A stretch of DNA of 64,000 bases from Isosphaeraceae bacterium (GTDB lineage: Bacteria; Planctomycetota; Planctomycetia; Isosphaerales; Isosphaeraceae), in the NCBI GenBank assembly GCA_025356475.1, contig JANXSX010000088.1:1-64000 (forward strand), given 5' to 3'. The notes under the pieces were generated by a model that was given only the letters and a program-made list of their open reading frames with translations, was not told where the DNA came from and searched no databases. The first letter of the stretch is position 1. Each line of letters opens with the position of its first letter. A program made the position numbers and the translations under genes. Below, in pieces: positions 6,933-19,835 of the stretch.

Positions 6933-7730
6933 TTATGTGTCACGCTTGAGAACGTGTCGAATCGTAATGAGCCAGGAAGCTCCGAAATAGTAGACTGGGT
7001 ACGCGAGCGAGATCAACATAAGGGTAAATGTCGAACCCGAAGCCGCTCGCTCTAGCGGTGTGTGGCCCACGACTGGCATCTGCCAGAGTACGCAGGAGAT
7101 CAAGATGGCCCAGACGCCCCCGAGTACGTTGCTAACACGGTTCAAGAGCCCCGGTTGCGACGGGTAGAGATAACGGCTGGGCACGAAGGTCAAGAGCCCC
7201 AGAACAACCAACCAGACCACACACCAGCCGCCCGTGACTGGCAGAGCATAGAGATAGAACGCCACGATGTTCCAAAGCGACGGAAAGCCGAGAAAATAGC
7301 CGTCGACCGTCTTCACATTCACCTGACAAAATCCGTACGCACTTGCAAGTAGTGGAACTAACAACCAAGCCTCGTGCCCAACTGGGAGCAGGCCCGCCCG
7401 CCAAATCAGGAATAATGGCAAGAATGTGTAGGTCAAAAAGTCGGTAATGTCATCAAGACGACGACCGTCAAAGCCGGGTAAAACCCGTTTGACATTCACC
7501 TTGCGGGCGAGCGTGCCATCGGTCGCATCCACAAAAGTCGCCAATGCCATCAGTGCGAAGGCGGCTCGAAAGGAACCGGCGTCACCCTGGACGATAAGGA
7601 TCGCGATCCCCGCCGAGAGGACAAGGCCCATCGCGGTGTAAAGATGAACCCCCCAGGCCAGGAACCACCGGACAGTGAACCATTCGGAACGGTCTAAATC
7701 ACTAGTATTCGATTGTATCACTGCGGTCAT
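6933..7730 (-). CDS. Phosphatidylcholine synthase-like CDP-alcohol phosphotransferase
   Basis: The 265-residue membrane protein carries the CDP-alcohol phosphotransferase signature D68xxD71G72xxA75R76...G89xxxD93xxxD97. Other stretches fit bacterial phosphatidylcholine synthase (Pcs) better than other family members: VHLYTAMG near the start, VKRVLP between the motif halves, a GFPSLWN segment, and LTFVPSRYLYP near the C-terminal third. Pcs joins choline to CDP-diacylglycerol in the inner membrane. The start ATG at 7730 overlaps the stop of the upstream permease gene (ATGA), so the longer frame reaching 7931 is not used. The neighbours (permease, phosphoethanolamine methyltransferase, choline kinase) support a role in choline lipid synthesis. 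A phosphatidylglycerol- or inositol-type substrate cannot be excluded. Confidence 0.8.
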   Translation of the reverse strand: MTAVIQSNTSDLDRSEWFTVRWFLAWGVHLYTAMGLVLSAGIAILIVQGDAGSFRAAFALMALATFVDATDGTLARKVNVKRVLPGFDGRRLDDITDFLTYTFLPLFLIWRAGLLPVGHEAWLLVPLLASAYGFCQVNVKTVDGYFLGFPSLWNIVAFYLYALPVTGGWCVVWLVVLGLLTFVPSRYLYPSQPGLLNRVSNVLGGVWAILISCVLWQMPVVGHTPLERAASGSTFTLMLISLAYPVYYFGASWLITIRHVLKRDT

Positions 7731-9277
7731 GATTCGACACCTCTGCGCAATACAATTTGGGGACGGAAGGCATGGACCACTAGCCCGGAGACAATCAAAA
7801 TGAACGTCGAGACCATGGGAGCATATCGTACCGCCCAACCATCGCCATAGATCTCCGCCCGAGGCCATGCGACGTTCACGACGAGGCCGATCCCCCACAC
7901 CACGGCAATCAGGTTCAGAGGCAGCCCCCACCGTCCCAGCCGAAATTCCGACCCGGCCTCATTTTCCGCTGGCCAACCCTTGAATCGTTGCAGAAGGAGT
8001 GGAACAGTAACCATCAGATAAGCCAAGTTCGCCCAGACGATCGATACCGATGCAGCGAGTTCGATAATTTTCGGCTGACCGAGGTTCATGAGGAGCAGAG
8101 CGGCTGCGATCAGTCCGACGACTCCAGCAGCACGCGCAGGGATCTGGAGCGGACCATTGACGACCGACAAAAACCGAGAGCCGGGCAAGACATTGTCGCG
8201 TGCCATCGCAAAAATCAATCGAACTGCCCCCGTATGAACGGCGAGGGCACACACTGTGATGGCCAGGGCAATGACCGCAAGAAAGAGTCGGCCGACGGTC
8301 CCACCCAATCGATCCATGACGATCGATGTCAAGCCACCCGAGGGCGAGGTCAGTTCGATCCCGTCGAGGTTGTTTGCAGCCATTAGCCCTGCCAGGACCA
8401 GCAAGATTCCAAACGTTGCTGCGGAGCCTAACGCCCAGAGAATCGCCCTGGGAGCGGTCCGTCGCGGGTTGCGAGTCTCTTCCGCGAGAGTCCCCGCAGT
8501 GTCAAATCCATACATGACATAAGAGGCAGATAAGGACGCGGCGAGAAAAGCTCCGAACGGATGAACGGACTTCGAACCGATCAGCACGACCTCGGGTCCA
8601 CGTTTCGCCAGAAAGAAGAGGAGTCCGATCAGGATCGTTGCACCCAGCAGTTCCGTGAACACCCCAAAGTTGTTGAGACGAGCCATAAGCTTGACGCCAA
8701 GAGCATTGATCACTGTCGAGAATCCGACAAGTCCGAGGCCAAGCAAGACCGCGTTCTTCGCCGCATCCGCAGGAGTGTTCGAATCACCGACAACCTGGAG
8801 CGCGGGGATCAATTGCGGCAAAGTTGATTGCAGCGCAAGCGTGACCGCCACCAAACTGACGATCAGACAACCCAGGAAAATCCAACCAGCAAGCCACCCG
8901 AGTCGGCCGCCGGTCGTGTGTTTTGACCACTGATAAACACCGCCTGCCAGCGGGTAATGGGTCGCCAGTTCCGCGAAGCAGAGGGCCACGGTGAATTGAC
9001 CGAGAAAGACGAGCGGCCAGGTCCAGAAAAACGCCGGACCACCCAGACCATACCCAAGGAAGAACGTCTGGGTGGTGCCAGTCAGGATTGAGAGATAAGA
9101 GAAACCCGCTGCGAAGGAAGAGAACCGCCCGAGCGAGCGACCAAGCTCGGGCTGGTAACCAAAAGCCGCGAGATCCGCAATGTCCTGAGCCTCTGTATGG
9201 ACAGGCCGAGGGGCACGGGGGCGACGTTCGCGTTTGATTCGCGAGACCTTCGCCTTCCGTACCTTGAGTCGAATCAT
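7727..9277 (-). CDS. APC family amino acid/choline permease
   Basis: This 516-residue protein shows about 12 apolar helices after a basic, Arg/Lys-rich N-terminal tail of about 30 residues. It fits the APC superfamily, in particular the amino acid/choline transporter branch: SILTGTTQTFFLGYGLGGP in helix 1-2, FAELATHYPLAGGVYQWSK after helix 3, and GFDTAGTLAEETRNPRR after helix 6. It should import an amine or amino acid at the inner membrane. Its start overlaps the end of the methyltransferase gene and its end overlaps the Pcs-like start, each as ATGA, so the three are translationally coupled. This context makes choline or ethanolamine the likely cargo, but that is inference. Confidence 0.85.
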   Translation of the reverse strand: MIRLKVRKAKVSRIKRERRPRAPRPVHTEAQDIADLAAFGYQPELGRSLGRFSSFAAGFSYLSILTGTTQTFFLGYGLGGPAFFWTWPLVFLGQFTVALCFAELATHYPLAGGVYQWSKHTTGGRLGWLAGWIFLGCLIVSLVAVTLALQSTLPQLIPALQVVGDSNTPADAAKNAVLLGLGLVGFSTVINALGVKLMARLNNFGVFTELLGATILIGLLFFLAKRGPEVVLIGSKSVHPFGAFLAASLSASYVMYGFDTAGTLAEETRNPRRTAPRAILWALGSAATFGILLVLAGLMAANNLDGIELTSPSGGLTSIVMDRLGGTVGRLFLAVIALAITVCALAVHTGAVRLIFAMARDNVLPGSRFLSVVNGPLQIPARAAGVVGLIAAALLLMNLGQPKIIELAASVSIVWANLAYLMVTVPLLLQRFKGWPAENEAGSEFRLGRWGLPLNLIAVVWGIGLVVNVAWPRAEIYGDGWAVRYAPMVSTFILIVSGLVVHAFRPQIVLRRGVES

Positions 9278-10080
9278 CGCTTATCGGCCTTGTAGATGCC
9301 CCACTTCTGATCGCCTGCCTTGCAGAAGACATCCTTCATGGCCCAGCGTTCGATCAAGTAGCTTGCATCCTGTTCCGAAAACATCTGAACGAATTCGGCA
9401 CGAGTTGCCTTGAGCTGCTCGGCTTCGCGATGCATGATCGCGATGAACTGTTCGGTCGCGTCTTCGGCAACCACATCGACGAACCCGGCGTCTTCGAGCA
9501 GCTTGCCATAGCTCGCCGGATCGATGACGTGATAACCCGTCTTCTTGATATATGCCTGGAAGTCGGGTGAGCCGGCCCCGGTCCCGCGTGCATAATCGGT
9601 GACGACCAGCCGTCCGCCGGGCTTGAGCAGGTTGTACAGCCGCTTGAAAAGTGCGGGCTTGTCATGGATGTGCATCAGTGCATCGCGTGACCACACGATG
9701 TCGAAGGGCTGGTCGAAATCGGTCGTCATGATGTCGGCGATCTGGAACTCAACCGAGTCGCCGACATTGGCTTCTTGAGCGCGCTCGTGGGCGATCGCGA
9801 TCATCTCTGGAGCGAGATCAACCCCAACGACCTTGACGCCGAAGCGTTTGGCCAGGTCGAACGCAGCCCCACCGATGCCACTGCCAACGTCGATGACTCG
9901 GGCACCAGGCTTGAGGTGATCGCCCAGCCGAGCGACCAGTGCGTCGGTCGTCTCTTGGCCACCAGTTGAGATGTAGCCAGGCCCGAAAATCTTCTCGTAA
10001 CGAAGAATCCCGTTGCGGCTGTACTGACCGTTATTATCGTACTTGGCGGTGTCGTTGGCCGCACTCTGCGTCGTCGTCAT
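9274..10080 (-). CDS. Phosphoethanolamine N-methyltransferase
   Basis: The 268-residue protein is a class I SAM methyltransferase (VIDVGSGIGG at 62-71). Outside the SAM site it follows the single-domain phosphoethanolamine methyltransferases known from Plasmodium and plants: QYSRNG with Tyr20, YEKIFGPGYISTGG, SRDALMH with His137, and a WGIYKADK end. Tyr20 and His137 align by eye with the catalytic Tyr/His pair of the Plasmodium enzyme. The family methylates phosphoethanolamine three times to phosphocholine. Length is typical for the single-domain type. It is the first gene of a coupled trio with the permease and the Pcs-like enzyme, and a choline/ethanolamine kinase lies 305 bp upstream on the same strand. 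I am fairly sure of the family; the number of methyl steps is not visible. Confidence 0.87.
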   Translation of the reverse strand: MTTTQSAANDTAKYDNNGQYSRNGILRYEKIFGPGYISTGGQETTDALVARLGDHLKPGARVIDVGSGIGGAAFDLAKRFGVKVVGVDLAPEMIAIAHERAQEANVGDSVEFQIADIMTTDFDQPFDIVWSRDALMHIHDKPALFKRLYNLLKPGGRLVVTDYARGTGAGSPDFQAYIKKTGYHVIDPASYGKLLEDAGFVDVVAEDATEQFIAIMHREAEQLKATRAEFVQMFSEQDASYLIERWAMKDVFCKAGDQKWGIYKADKR

Positions 10081-10385
10081 GAACGCGAAACCCTTCGAAA
10101 GGCCGTGCTCGAAAGCAAAAACCGGTGATGTTGATCAAGGATGGCGGGGCGTCCGTGGTCGAATCACGAGCGGACGATGAACAGTCGGCGAAAAACCGAT
10201 GAAGGAAAGCCTACCAATTTCTCTTCGCTACGTCCAAGGTTGCAACTAAAAATCGGGGCATCTTCACAAAGCAATTTTCACAATTCTTGAAATCCATACG
10301 CATGGTTCGGCGTGGCGATTCCTGCCATTCCTTCTGCCACATCATGCAAAATCGATGTTGCGAATTGCATTTGAAACAAGAAAAG
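10081..10385. other. Intergenic region before methyltransferase gene
   Basis: No gene is seen in these 305 bp. They separate the kinase gene from the coupled trio on the same strand and should hold the promoter of the trio. The A/T-rich part near 10250-10300 is a candidate, but I could not settle on a convincing -35/-10 pair. Confidence 0.4.
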
Positions 10386-11255
10386 CTATATGTCAGCTCT
10401 TGCTATTTGATAGGCATTGAAATTCTTTGATGCATAGCCTTCATAATCGAATTCGATATCTGAGGCCACGGTTTGAATTACGGACCAAAGCGCCTCTCGA
10501 AGCAGAGAAACGGCCTTCAGAATCGCTAATTCCGACCGGTCCACCGCGTCAATTTGGCCTCGATAGGCTTCGAGCAAGGTTAGCTCTGCTTCGGTCGAGA
10601 AACCGCAATTTCCCGAGAGGCAGGCGAGATCGAAGAGGGGGTGGCCAATCCCGGCATACTCCCAGTCGACCAGCCAAATGCGTTCGTCGCTCGCCAGGAT
10701 ATTGGCTGCGAGCAGGTCGTTGTGGCAGAGCGTCGGCGTAAAGGGAGCGATCCGCATCGAGAGCCGACTGGAATCAGCCACCATCGCGTCAATGTCGCTT
10801 GGTAGTTTGGCCCCAAGTTCGCGGGCGGTTCTTGCATAGGTGCGGACCGTTTGAAATGGCGAAAAGTAGAGCATCTCGCCCGTCAGGTCCGTCCAGCCGC
10901 CGTGGAGCTGTTTCAAGACTTGGGCCATTCTAAGCAAAAACCCCGCCTCCCGCACTTGGTCGGCGTTCAAGGTGCGGGCACGGAGGCGGTCGCTGATCAT
11001 GACTCCGTTGGCATGGTGAACGACGCGTGGGGCGACTTCAAGTTCTGCCCCCGCTCGCTGGCAGATCATTTCATTACGTCGATCAATCCCAAGAAGCGTG
11101 CGATCAACACACACCCTTGCGACATACGTGCCTGAATTATCTTTCACAAGATAGTTATGATTGGTGATGCCACCCGGCAATACTTCAAGCGAGACCGGCC
11201 CCAACCAGAGGTCAAGCGCTCGAATCGTTCGGGCATCCACGTGGTCACTATTCAT
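10386..11255 (-). CDS. Choline/ethanolamine kinase family protein
   Basis: The 289-residue protein has an aminoglycoside-phosphotransferase-like kinase fold. PGGITNHNYLV near residue 27 is the nucleotide loop of choline kinases, CHNDLLAANIL (His178, Asp180, Asn185) is the catalytic loop, and WLVDWEYAG (Asp197) is the metal-binding motif. GHPLFDLACLSGN follows as in LicA/choline kinases. It should phosphorylate choline or ethanolamine in the cytoplasm. It starts 28 bp after the stop of the DUF1501 gene and precedes the phosphoethanolamine methyltransferase on the same strand, so ethanolamine is an attractive substrate: the product would feed the methyltransferase. Substrate preference cannot be read from sequence. 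Confidence 0.85.
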   Translation of the reverse strand: MNSDHVDARTIRALDLWLGPVSLEVLPGGITNHNYLVKDNSGTYVARVCVDRTLLGIDRRNEMICQRAGAELEVAPRVVHHANGVMISDRLRARTLNADQVREAGFLLRMAQVLKQLHGGWTDLTGEMLYFSPFQTVRTYARTARELGAKLPSDIDAMVADSSRLSMRIAPFTPTLCHNDLLAANILASDERIWLVDWEYAGIGHPLFDLACLSGNCGFSTEAELTLLEAYRGQIDAVDRSELAILKAVSLLREALWSVIQTVASDIEFDYEGYASKNFNAYQIARADI

Positions 11256-11283: not shown

Positions 11284-12687
11284 TTAGACCAGGATCGAAC
11301 GAACCACTTCGCCCGAGACGTCGGTCAGACGATAGTCACGGCCACTCTGGCGATAGGTCAGTTTTGTATGGTCGATACCCATCAGGTGAAGGATTGTCGC
11401 GTGTAAGTCGTGGACATGTACCTTGTCGCGGATGGAGTGCCAGCCGAACTCGTCAGTCTCCCCGTAGGCCATACCTCCCTTGACCCCGCCACCTGCCATC
11501 CACATGGTAAATCCGAACGGGTGGTGCTCACGCCCATCGGTCCCTTCGGCGGTCGGAGTTCGACCGAATTCGCCACCCCAGACGACCAAGGTATCATCGA
11601 GCAGGCCGCGCGATTTCAGGTCAGTCAGAAGTCCCGCGATCGGCCCATCGGTCGCTGCACAGTTGTTGGGAAGCTCAGTCTTGAGCCCACCATGTTGATC
11701 CCAAAGTTGGCAACTCTTGCGCTTGGAGGTCTGGGTATGGTAGACCTGAATACATCGGACTCCACGCTCAGCCAGCCGACGGGCCATCAGGCACTGTGTT
11801 CCGAAGATCTCGGTGGCCGGATCATCGAGACCATAGAGTGACTTCGTCGCTCGGGACTCCGACTCGATATGAAATGCTTCAGGTGCTCGCATCTGCATCC
11901 GGTAGGCAAGTTCGAATGAGGCGATCCGCGCTGACAGGCGGCTATCGTCCTCCTTGCCTCGTCGATGCAATTCGTTGAGTTTTGAGAGTCCGTCCAGTTG
12001 GTCGCGCTGTTGATCCTTGCGAAAGATGGGATTGTCGAGATTCGCAATCGGTCGATTCAGGTCGGAGATCAAGGTTCCCTGGTGGGCTGCCGGCAGAAAG
12101 CTCGATGCCCAGAGCGGGGCACCTTGCGCCGGTTGGCTCGGGCTGATCACCACGAACCCTGGGAGGTCGCGGTTCTCACTTCCGAGTCCGTAAGTCAGCC
12201 AGCTTCCTAAGCTCGGCCGAGAGAACGTTTGTTCTCCCGTATTCATCTGCAAGCACGCCCCATTGTGATTGATGTTGTCGGCCACCATTGAGCGAATTAC
12301 GCAGAGATCATCCGCTCGTTTGGCAAGCTTTGGGAACAGTTCGCTGATATCGAGCCCCGCCTGGCCGTACTTGCCGAACTTGAATGGGGATTGGAGCAGG
12401 TTACCTGTTCGGGTCCGCTCCAGGTGCGGCATGGTGAAGGGCAGGGGCTTGCCGTTGTCTCGGATTAGCCGTGGCTTGGGATCGAAGGTATCGACATGCG
12501 ATGGTCCACCCGACATGAACAGGAAAATGACCCGTTTCGCCTTGGGCTCGAACATGGGTGGCCGAGGAGCCAGCGGATCTGACGATTCTTGGCTGCGTGC
12601 CTCGTCGGCGAGCACTCCCGCAAGGCCGAGGAGGCCAAATCCGCCCCCCAGTCTGCGAAGGGCCTCACGCCTTGATGGATCGAACAC
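11284..12687 (-). CDS. DUF1501 family exported protein
   Basis: The 467-residue protein starts with a Tat-type signal (SRREALRRLGGGFGLLGLAG). The body matches DUF1501, an abundant planctomycete family with an alkaline phosphatase/sulfatase-like fold: FLFMSGGPSHVDTFDPKP near residue 52, GAPLWASSFLPAAHQGT in the middle, and VVWGGEFGRTPTAEG, GREHHPFGFTMWMAGGG near the C-terminus. Function is unknown. The start codon is GTG at 12687 with AGAGGA about 9 bases upstream. DUF1501 genes usually follow a DUF1549/DUF1553 gene, but here the downstream partner is a choline kinase gene, 28 bp away. Confidence 0.9.
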   Translation of the reverse strand: MFDPSRREALRRLGGGFGLLGLAGVLADEARSQESSDPLAPRPPMFEPKAKRVIFLFMSGGPSHVDTFDPKPRLIRDNGKPLPFTMPHLERTRTGNLLQSPFKFGKYGQAGLDISELFPKLAKRADDLCVIRSMVADNINHNGACLQMNTGEQTFSRPSLGSWLTYGLGSENRDLPGFVVISPSQPAQGAPLWASSFLPAAHQGTLISDLNRPIANLDNPIFRKDQQRDQLDGLSKLNELHRRGKEDDSRLSARIASFELAYRMQMRAPEAFHIESESRATKSLYGLDDPATEIFGTQCLMARRLAERGVRCIQVYHTQTSKRKSCQLWDQHGGLKTELPNNCAATDGPIAGLLTDLKSRGLLDDTLVVWGGEFGRTPTAEGTDGREHHPFGFTMWMAGGGVKGGMAYGETDEFGWHSIRDKVHVHDLHATILHLMGIDHTKLTYRQSGRDYRLTDVSGEVVRSILV

Positions 12688-19214: not shown

Positions 19215-19835
19215 TCACGCTTCGATCCCTTGATCTTTGAGATAAGCGCGAAGCTGGTCAAGCCCTGTAAATTGAACCGCATTGAGCCCTAGAGCCAACG
19301 CAGGCTCGACGTTGAGTGACCGGTCGTCGATAAAGAGGGCGCAACTGTGATCGCGACATCCGGCGATCCCCAACGCGTTGATATAAACGCTTTCGTCGGG
19401 CTTCACTTGGCCTAGGTAACACGACGTAAGGAAGCCCCGAAAGATGTCACGAAGACCGAACTCGCGGACCCGGTGCTCGTGTAACTCGCGACTCTCGTTG
19501 TTTAGGGTGTACAAGCTGTACTTCCCAGTCTTGGCCAGGGCGCGAACGAATTCGAGGGTCTCTCCGAGTAGTTGCGAGGAGTTCAGCATCACCTGACGGA
19601 TGTCGGCGACGGAGAATGCTCTTGGCTTGTAGAAAATCGTCTTCTTGATATAGCCATCAAGGTCGAGCCGACCGGTTTCAAATGAGGTCTTGAGCATCTC
19701 ATGGCGGGTCTGAAACTCAGGGTAGTCGAGCCCGAAGGTCTCGGCGGTCTGCTTCCTCGCGGCGGTATCCCAACCGTTGGTCAGCATCACACCGCCAATA
19801 TCGAAAAACAACGTCGGAGCTTCGGTCCCGCGCAT
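19215..19835 (-). CDS. HAD-superfamily hydrolase-like protein
   Basis: The 206-residue protein has the HAD-IA layout: motif I FFDIGGVML near residue 10, a four-helix cap (about 18-85), motif II LNNES with a Thr/Asn at the switch, motif III Lys in GQVKPDESVY, and motif IV FIDDRSLNVEPA. In motif I the second catalytic Asp (DxD) is replaced by Gly (DIGG), a change seen in several HAD-IA phosphatases such as glucose-1-phosphate phosphatase relatives. The substrate is unknown. It lies 64 bp after the upstream gene of the same strand. Confidence 0.85.
   Translation of the reverse strand: MRGTEAPTLFFDIGGVMLTNGWDTAARKQTAETFGLDYPEFQTRHEMLKTSFETGRLDLDGYIKKTIFYKPRAFSVADIRQVMLNSSQLLGETLEFVRALAKTGKYSLYTLNNESRELHEHRVREFGLRDIFRGFLTSCYLGQVKPDESVYINALGIAGCRDHSCALFIDDRSLNVEPALALGLNAVQFTGLDQLRAYLKDQGIEA

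Follow-up and report, generated by a model that had tools for sequence, protein, structure and literature searches.

Phosphatidylcholine (PC) is an unusual lipid in bacteria. The routes to it that are well described there proceed either by methylation of phosphatidylethanolamine (PE) or from choline taken up from outside. Here, we describe four genes of an Isosphaeraceae bacterium (GenBank assembly GCA_025356475.1, contig JANXSX010000088.1, positions 1 to 64,000, designated the window below) that probably encode a PE-independent route to PC, leading from ethanolamine via phosphoethanolamine, phosphocholine, and choline. They occupy positions 6933-11255 of the window, all on the minus strand, in the order KIN, PMT, PERM, and PCS. 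This interpretation is based on homology, intact catalytic sites, a conserved gene order, nested co-occurrence of the genes in related genomes, and the lack of a recognised PE- or CDP-choline-dependent alternative. It agrees with the main idea of an initial annotation of the window, choline lipid synthesis through phosphoethanolamine methylation, which is supported by homology, gene order, and co-occurrence, all enzyme activities being predicted from sequence.

In the proposed pathway, KIN (10386-11255; 289 aa), a member of the choline/ethanolamine kinase family, would phosphorylate ethanolamine to phosphoethanolamine, and PMT (9274-10080; 268 aa), a single-domain homologue of phosphoethanolamine N-methyltransferases, would convert the latter to phosphocholine in three S-adenosylmethionine (SAM)-dependent methylations. 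A phosphatase presumably encoded elsewhere in the genome, for which a HAD-type protein is the best lead, would release choline from phosphocholine, and PCS (6933-7730; 265 aa), a Pcs-type CDP-alcohol phosphotransferase, would use choline and CDP-diacylglycerol (CDP-DAG) to form PC and CMP. PERM (7727-9277; 516 aa), an amino acid/choline-type permease of the APC superfamily, would import choline and/or ethanolamine and thereby allow the pathway to run either as salvage (PERM and PCS) or de novo (KIN, PMT, and PCS).

Identity of the four proteins

PMT is a true homologue of the phosphoethanolamine methyltransferases, as judged from sequence, fold, and phylogenetic tree, and does not group with unrelated SAM-dependent enzymes. 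A phmmer search against PDB sequences matched it to plant AtPMT2 (2.6e-84, 48% identity), nematode CePMT-2 (7e-48), and Plasmodium PfPMT (6e-43); the 11 top PDB sequences, which include AtPMT1 and the Plasmodium and Haemonchus enzymes, are all PMTs (3e-84 to 2e-41), and the next protein follows at 7e-23. In a PDB fold search with the AlphaFold model (pLDDT 92), ranks 1-21 were likewise all PMTs, the best being AtPMT2, AtPMT1, PvPMT, and PfPMT, and the model has the same fold as the Plasmodium enzyme, with a TM score of 0.88 to PfPMT with bound phosphoethanolamine. The Tyr20/His137 pair pointed out in the initial annotation aligns to the catalytic pair Tyr19/His132 of PfPMT, and this pair is invariant across 30 bacterial and four eukaryotic sequences. 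The PfPMT residues Q18, Y19, Y27, S37, D128, H132, Y160, Y175, Y181, and K247 are all retained in PMT; the phosphobase site of PfPMT includes Y160, R179, Y181, and K247. The PMT tree does not tell which way the gene passed between bacteria and eukaryotes; long branches meet at this point. OlsG (Sinac_1600), the known planctomycete lipid N-methyltransferase, was rejected as the identity of PMT: the PMT gene of Singulisphaera acidiphila lies at 8.87 Mb of the 9.63-Mb chromosome, and the order of locus tags suggests that Sinac_1600 lies far from this position.

PCS is proposed to be a CDP-DAG:choline phosphatidylcholine synthase, an assignment that draws on sequence comparison and a predicted structure. 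It scored 99-148 bits with the five NCBIfam Pcs models and 35 bits with PssA. Its signature DGx2ARx12Gx3Dx3D (DGTLAR-x12-GRRLDDITD) has the 12-residue spacer of the Pcs proteins of Sinorhizobium meliloti, Legionella, and Pseudomonas, the spacer being 8 residues in the other three PF01066 proteins of the genome (PgsA and two without assigned function). In addition, F146, GFP148-150, W153, and N154, which form an F-x-GFP-x2-WN block, are invariant with known Pcs, and a search of S. meliloti and Legionella plasmid records with PCS matched the gene annotated as phosphatidylcholine synthase. The protein thus groups with Pcs, as initially annotated, and not with phosphatidylglycerol (PG), phosphatidylinositol, or phosphatidylserine (PS) synthases. 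A PDB sequence search gave nothing useful; in the fold search with the PCS model (pLDDT 83), the nearest structure was a CDP-DAG-dependent PS synthase, with CEPT1 and CHPT1 far lower, which makes CDP-DAG the likelier predicted donor over CDP-choline.

KIN matched the Pfam family Choline_kinase (PF01633) with 7.2e-21 and 75.2 bits (gathering cut-off 29), and its relatives of solved structure are 3dxq of the choline/ethanolamine kinase family (7.6e-25) and the choline kinase 4r77 (2.5e-18). Its top NCBIfam model is that of the guanitoxin kinase GntI (185 bits, below the cut-off of 357). We propose that KIN is an ethanolamine kinase feeding PMT, the preference for ethanolamine being read from the genomic linkage to PMT only. 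PERM matched AA_permease_2 of Pfam (4.7e-45) and, below cut-off in both cases, the NCBIfam models TIGR03428 (the best, with 478 bits against a cut-off of 740) and TIGR00907 (158 bits). It is an APC permease that fits the choline/amino acid branch named in the initial annotation only loosely. PERM is proposed to import choline and/or ethanolamine; sequence fixes the substrate of neither PERM nor KIN.

Gene order, co-occurrence, and supply enzymes

The four open reading frames are present where the initial annotation had placed them, and the overlaps it described are read in the sequence as ATGA at 9274-9277 (PMT stop/PERM start) and 7727-7730 (PERM stop/PCS start). The start codon of PCS is the ATG at 7730, the mechanically called reading frame having begun upstream at the GTG at 7931. 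Since KIN and PMT are separated by a gap of 305 bp, translational coupling is apparent for PMT, PERM, and PCS only. The neighbourhood is not due to chance, as a survey of 45 genomes of the order Isosphaerales (PMT matches >50% identical, KIN matches >47% identical) shows: PMT was found in 25 genomes, PCS in 30 plus one partial match, and KIN in 12, and the order PMT-PERM-PCS is kept in 16 of the 25 genomes with PMT. Two more have PMT-PCS without PERM, PMT lying near PERM-PCS in 18 of 25. PCS is present in every PMT genome (25/25), and a full PCS is absent in 15 of the 20 genomes without PMT (Fisher 4e-8, uncorrected for relatedness); similarly, 11 of the 12 KIN genomes contain PMT (Fisher p 0.005, also uncorrected), with KIN and PMT adjacent in five (that of the window and four relatives). 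Such a nesting of KIN within PMT within PCS is the trace expected of a pathway that ends at PCS. Of the 30 loci in which PCS was matched in full, 26 have PERM as its neighbour, among them loci without PMT. PERM-PCS also forms a pair of its own in genomes that encode PMT at another place or lack it, and in the latter such pairs are what choline salvage would predict. In S. acidiphila DSM 18658, all four genes are present as two separate pairs, KIN-PMT and PERM-PCS. Clustering of the genes near PMT, KIN, and PCS in the relatives yielded no conserved fifth gene; two recurring candidates, C3 (transporter-like, convergent on PCS) and C5, resemble ordinary neighbours. Among the other planctomycetes sampled, no close PMT relatives were found, and about 287 genomes searched with a less sensitive query contained three distant PCS relatives.

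The genome from which the window stems (5.9 Mb in 232 contigs; completeness 99.98%, contamination 1.6%) belongs to the family containing Singulisphaera, Paludisphaera, and Aquisphaera. No PS decarboxylase (PF02666) was found in it, even at the level of loose candidates, and its PF01066 proteins (PgsA and two others) do not include PssA, which leaves a PE-methylation route without an obvious substrate. PS decarboxylase was not found in 32 of the 45 Isosphaerales genomes, 15 of the 25 with PMT among them, and a lack of PE synthesis via this enzyme may be common throughout the order. The genome also encodes two CDP-alcohol phosphotransferases without an assigned function (C12:19512-19847, L002; C28:4249-4539, L003) that weakly resemble inositol-phosphate synthases, and the L002 protein has an extra N-terminal region. 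The initial annotation had rightly posed the puzzle of a missing cytidylyltransferase: no phosphocholine cytidylyltransferase was recognised genome-wide among the CTP_transf (PF01467) proteins, which are CoaD, NadD, and HldE, and the examined NTP_transf_3 (PF12804) proteins, which are of the MocA, GlmU, GMP/PMI, RmlA, MurU/GMP-like, and IspD types, three weak PF12804 matches being unexamined, and a divergent LicC-like enzyme could have escaped recognition. This makes free choline the likely intermediate that connects PMT with PCS and favours the first of the options offered in the initial annotation, a phosphatase acting between the two enzymes.

A motif-based search through 84,980 species genomes, which gives a lower bound, detected PMT in Isosphaerales, Myxococcota/Deltaproteobacteria, sulfate reducers, Poribacteria, and a single further proteobacterium. 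In two of the sulfate reducers and in this further proteobacterium, the gene immediately upstream of PMT is KIN. A Pcs relative is present in 9 of the 11 PMT-bearing non-planctomycete genomes tested, compared with the 3 of about 287 other planctomycetes found with the less sensitive query. In three PMT-bearing genomes of Myxococcota/Deltaproteobacteria from two lineages, a HAD-IA phosphatase gene is divergent from pcs (L188, 4635-5330, minus strand; L189, 1380-2195, plus strand; L190, 7404-8204, plus strand), the proteins being 41% identical between the lineages. They belong to a broad family whose nearest models are sugar phosphatases, and represent the best candidate for a phosphocholine phosphatase. 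The HAD protein encoded in the window at 19215-19835 was rejected for this role, since it has no similarity to the one beside myxococcotal pcs and lies outside the conserved set. In a wider form, the proposal is that a PE-independent de novo route combining a eukaryote-type PMT with a bacterial Pcs occurs in Isosphaerales and, with the genes reordered, in Myxococcota, sulfate reducers, and Poribacteria, that the phosphate-binding arginine of the bacterial PMT clade has moved to the C-terminal helix, and that the HAD protein beside pcs dephosphorylates phosphocholine; we consider this a tentative proposal whose chances fall a little short of even.

In the sulfate reducers (L146, 3-6780; L147, 715-6756), KIN-PMT lies downstream of genes for a corrinoid-binding protein, a methyltransferase of the MtmB family (PF05369), and, in L146, an ABC permease, surroundings that suggest quaternary-amine or methylamine metabolism. 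MtmB genes normally carry an in-frame amber codon for pyrrolysine; the MtmB-family reading frame in these loci is uninterrupted (460 aa), with no in-frame amber codon seen.

Near the cluster in the window, a DUF1501 gene (PF07394, 504 bits; 11284-12687, minus strand) ends 28 bp upstream of KIN, and because the two lie so close on the same strand, KIN may be transcribed with this gene instead of with PMT. Divergent from it is a gene for a Y-family DNA polymerase (IMS, PF00817; 12751-14232, plus strand), and convergent with PCS is a gene for a protein with one neutral/alkaline ceramidase-like and one LamG domain (PF04734, 34.5 bits, and PF13385; 4722-6926, plus strand). An Rfam scan of the window, whose sole match was one tRNA, revealed no riboswitch upstream of PMT.

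Points against the proposed route and rival explanations

Several observations weigh against the proposed route. PCS does not reach the cut-offs of 300-440 bits of the Pcs models (148 bits against 440, 124 against 300), which marks it as a divergent branch and not an ortholog of the proteins behind those models. The cluster contains no phosphatase gene, and a phosphocholine phosphatase of the plant/animal type (PF06888, PHOSPHO1/PECP1) was not found in the genome. A source of ethanolamine was also not found, the genome containing no group II decarboxylase (PF00282, the family of plant serine decarboxylase and S1P lyase); import is the simplest guess. A close KIN is absent in 14 PMT genomes of the order, and no Pcs was seen in two of the 11 PMT genomes outside the planctomycetes. 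S. acidiphila possesses a PS decarboxylase gene, so that PE could be formed there, and gene loss does not explain why PE is missing from the major lipid classes of this species. Finally, R179, a phosphate-site residue of PfPMT, is replaced by T181 in PMT. This position is Arg in all examined eukaryotic enzymes, Thr in 20 sequences of Isosphaerales, and Ser in eight of Myxococcota and sulfate reducers, and in precisely these 28 of the 30 bacterial sequences the position of PfPMT Gly243 is Arg (R245 in PMT); the two Poribacteria enzymes retain the eukaryotic Arg/Gly pair. According to sequence and AlphaFold model, R245 is located four residues, or one helix turn, before the conserved site lysine in the same helix. 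An arginine from one side of the site may thus have taken the place of the one lost on the other, and the pattern suggests that R245 may be a relocated phosphate ligand compensating for the loss of R179. The swap is confined to one branch of the tree (support 99/96) and hence counts as one event.

The loss of R179 in these 28 sequences could also mark a change of substrate, with the enzymes of this clade methylating unphosphorylated (mono- or dimethyl-) ethanolamine to choline that passes straight to PCS, in which case no phosphatase would be required. Given the conserved tyrosines and lysine of the site, the coincident R245, and the linkage of PMT to a kinase, we regard this as distinctly improbable. 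A phosphatase would be equally dispensable in a Kennedy-type route, in which the PMT product phosphocholine is used directly for the formation of CDP-choline and the Pcs-like enzyme transfers the head group to diacylglycerol; CDP-alcohol phosphotransferases do include cholinephosphotransferases, and CEPT1 appeared at rank 9 (E 0.13) in the fold search. This explanation, which lacks a recognised cytidylyltransferase and is at variance both with the fold ranking of PCS and with PERM-PCS pairs that occur without PMT or KIN and fit free choline, seems quite unlikely to us.

The two gene pairs might instead serve two independent functions, PERM-PCS making PC from imported choline and KIN-PMT providing phosphocholine/choline mainly for another purpose, namely the osmolyte glycine betaine, methylamine metabolism, or decoration with phosphocholine. 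The arrangement as two distinct modules, seen in Singulisphaera and elsewhere, and the sulfate-reducer loci described above favour such a division. It is nevertheless unlikely in view of the fact that every Isosphaerales genome with PMT also has PCS, that PMT overlaps the PERM-PCS unit in the window and lies beside it in most PMT genomes, and that it is accompanied by Pcs in most of the outside genomes. Comparably unlikely is a reverse role of KIN as a choline kinase converting free choline to phosphocholine for storage or export, a view compatible with the remainder of the proposed route: choline and ethanolamine are both substrates of this kinase family and the sequence does not decide between them, whereas KIN is tied to PMT, also by adjacency in other phyla, and not to PCS or PERM.

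Comparison with known systems

In published lipid tables, S. acidiphila, S. rosea, and Aquisphaera giovannonii are listed with PC and PG and without mono- or dimethyl-PE (PMC4334474), and the major lipid classes of S. acidiphila are given in a second report as trimethylornithine lipid (TMO), PC, PG, and phosphatidic acid (PA) (PMC12493201). The proposed route would account for PC as a major lipid in Singulisphaera and its relatives without PE-methylation intermediates, and it is directly testable in S. acidiphila, for which a gene-deletion method is described (PMC12493201). If correct, it would represent a further way to self-sufficiency in PC, in which soluble choline made by PMT is passed to a bacterial synthase.

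PMT has been regarded as a hallmark of plants, worms, and malaria parasites; with the bacterial homologues, a new group would enter the history of this target of antiparasitic drugs. With the enzymes of these eukaryotes (the second domain of AtPMT1/2, CePMT-2, and PfPMT), the PMT of the window shares full-length homology and the fold, as well as both catalytic residues and almost all substrate residues; it differs in being a bacterial single-domain protein, in the R179-to-T181 and G243-to-R245 exchanges, and in being coupled to Pcs instead of the CDP-choline pathway. PCS shares the DGx2ARx12Gx3Dx3D signature and the F-x-GFP-x2-WN block with the Pcs proteins of Sinorhizobium, Legionella, Pseudomonas, and Borrelia, and differs from known Pcs in its low identity (26-36%), in scoring below the curated cut-offs, and in its genomic tie to a methyltransferase that would supply choline, whereas known Pcs is described as relying on exogenous choline (PMC10434233). 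KIN belongs to the same kinase family as the Lic-1 choline kinase LicA, but has no visible LicB/C/D context, is linked to PMT, and has GntI as its nearest NCBIfam model. The PmtA pathway, the threefold methylation of PE, likewise forms PC de novo with SAM; PmtA, however, acts on the lipid, and the genome of the window has neither PS decarboxylase nor PssA. A literature search, with most subscription papers outside its reach, revealed no description of the combination of PMT and Pcs, of the link between them in several phyla, or of the arginine swap. Each of the enzymes is of a known kind, and these three features may be the new parts of the system.

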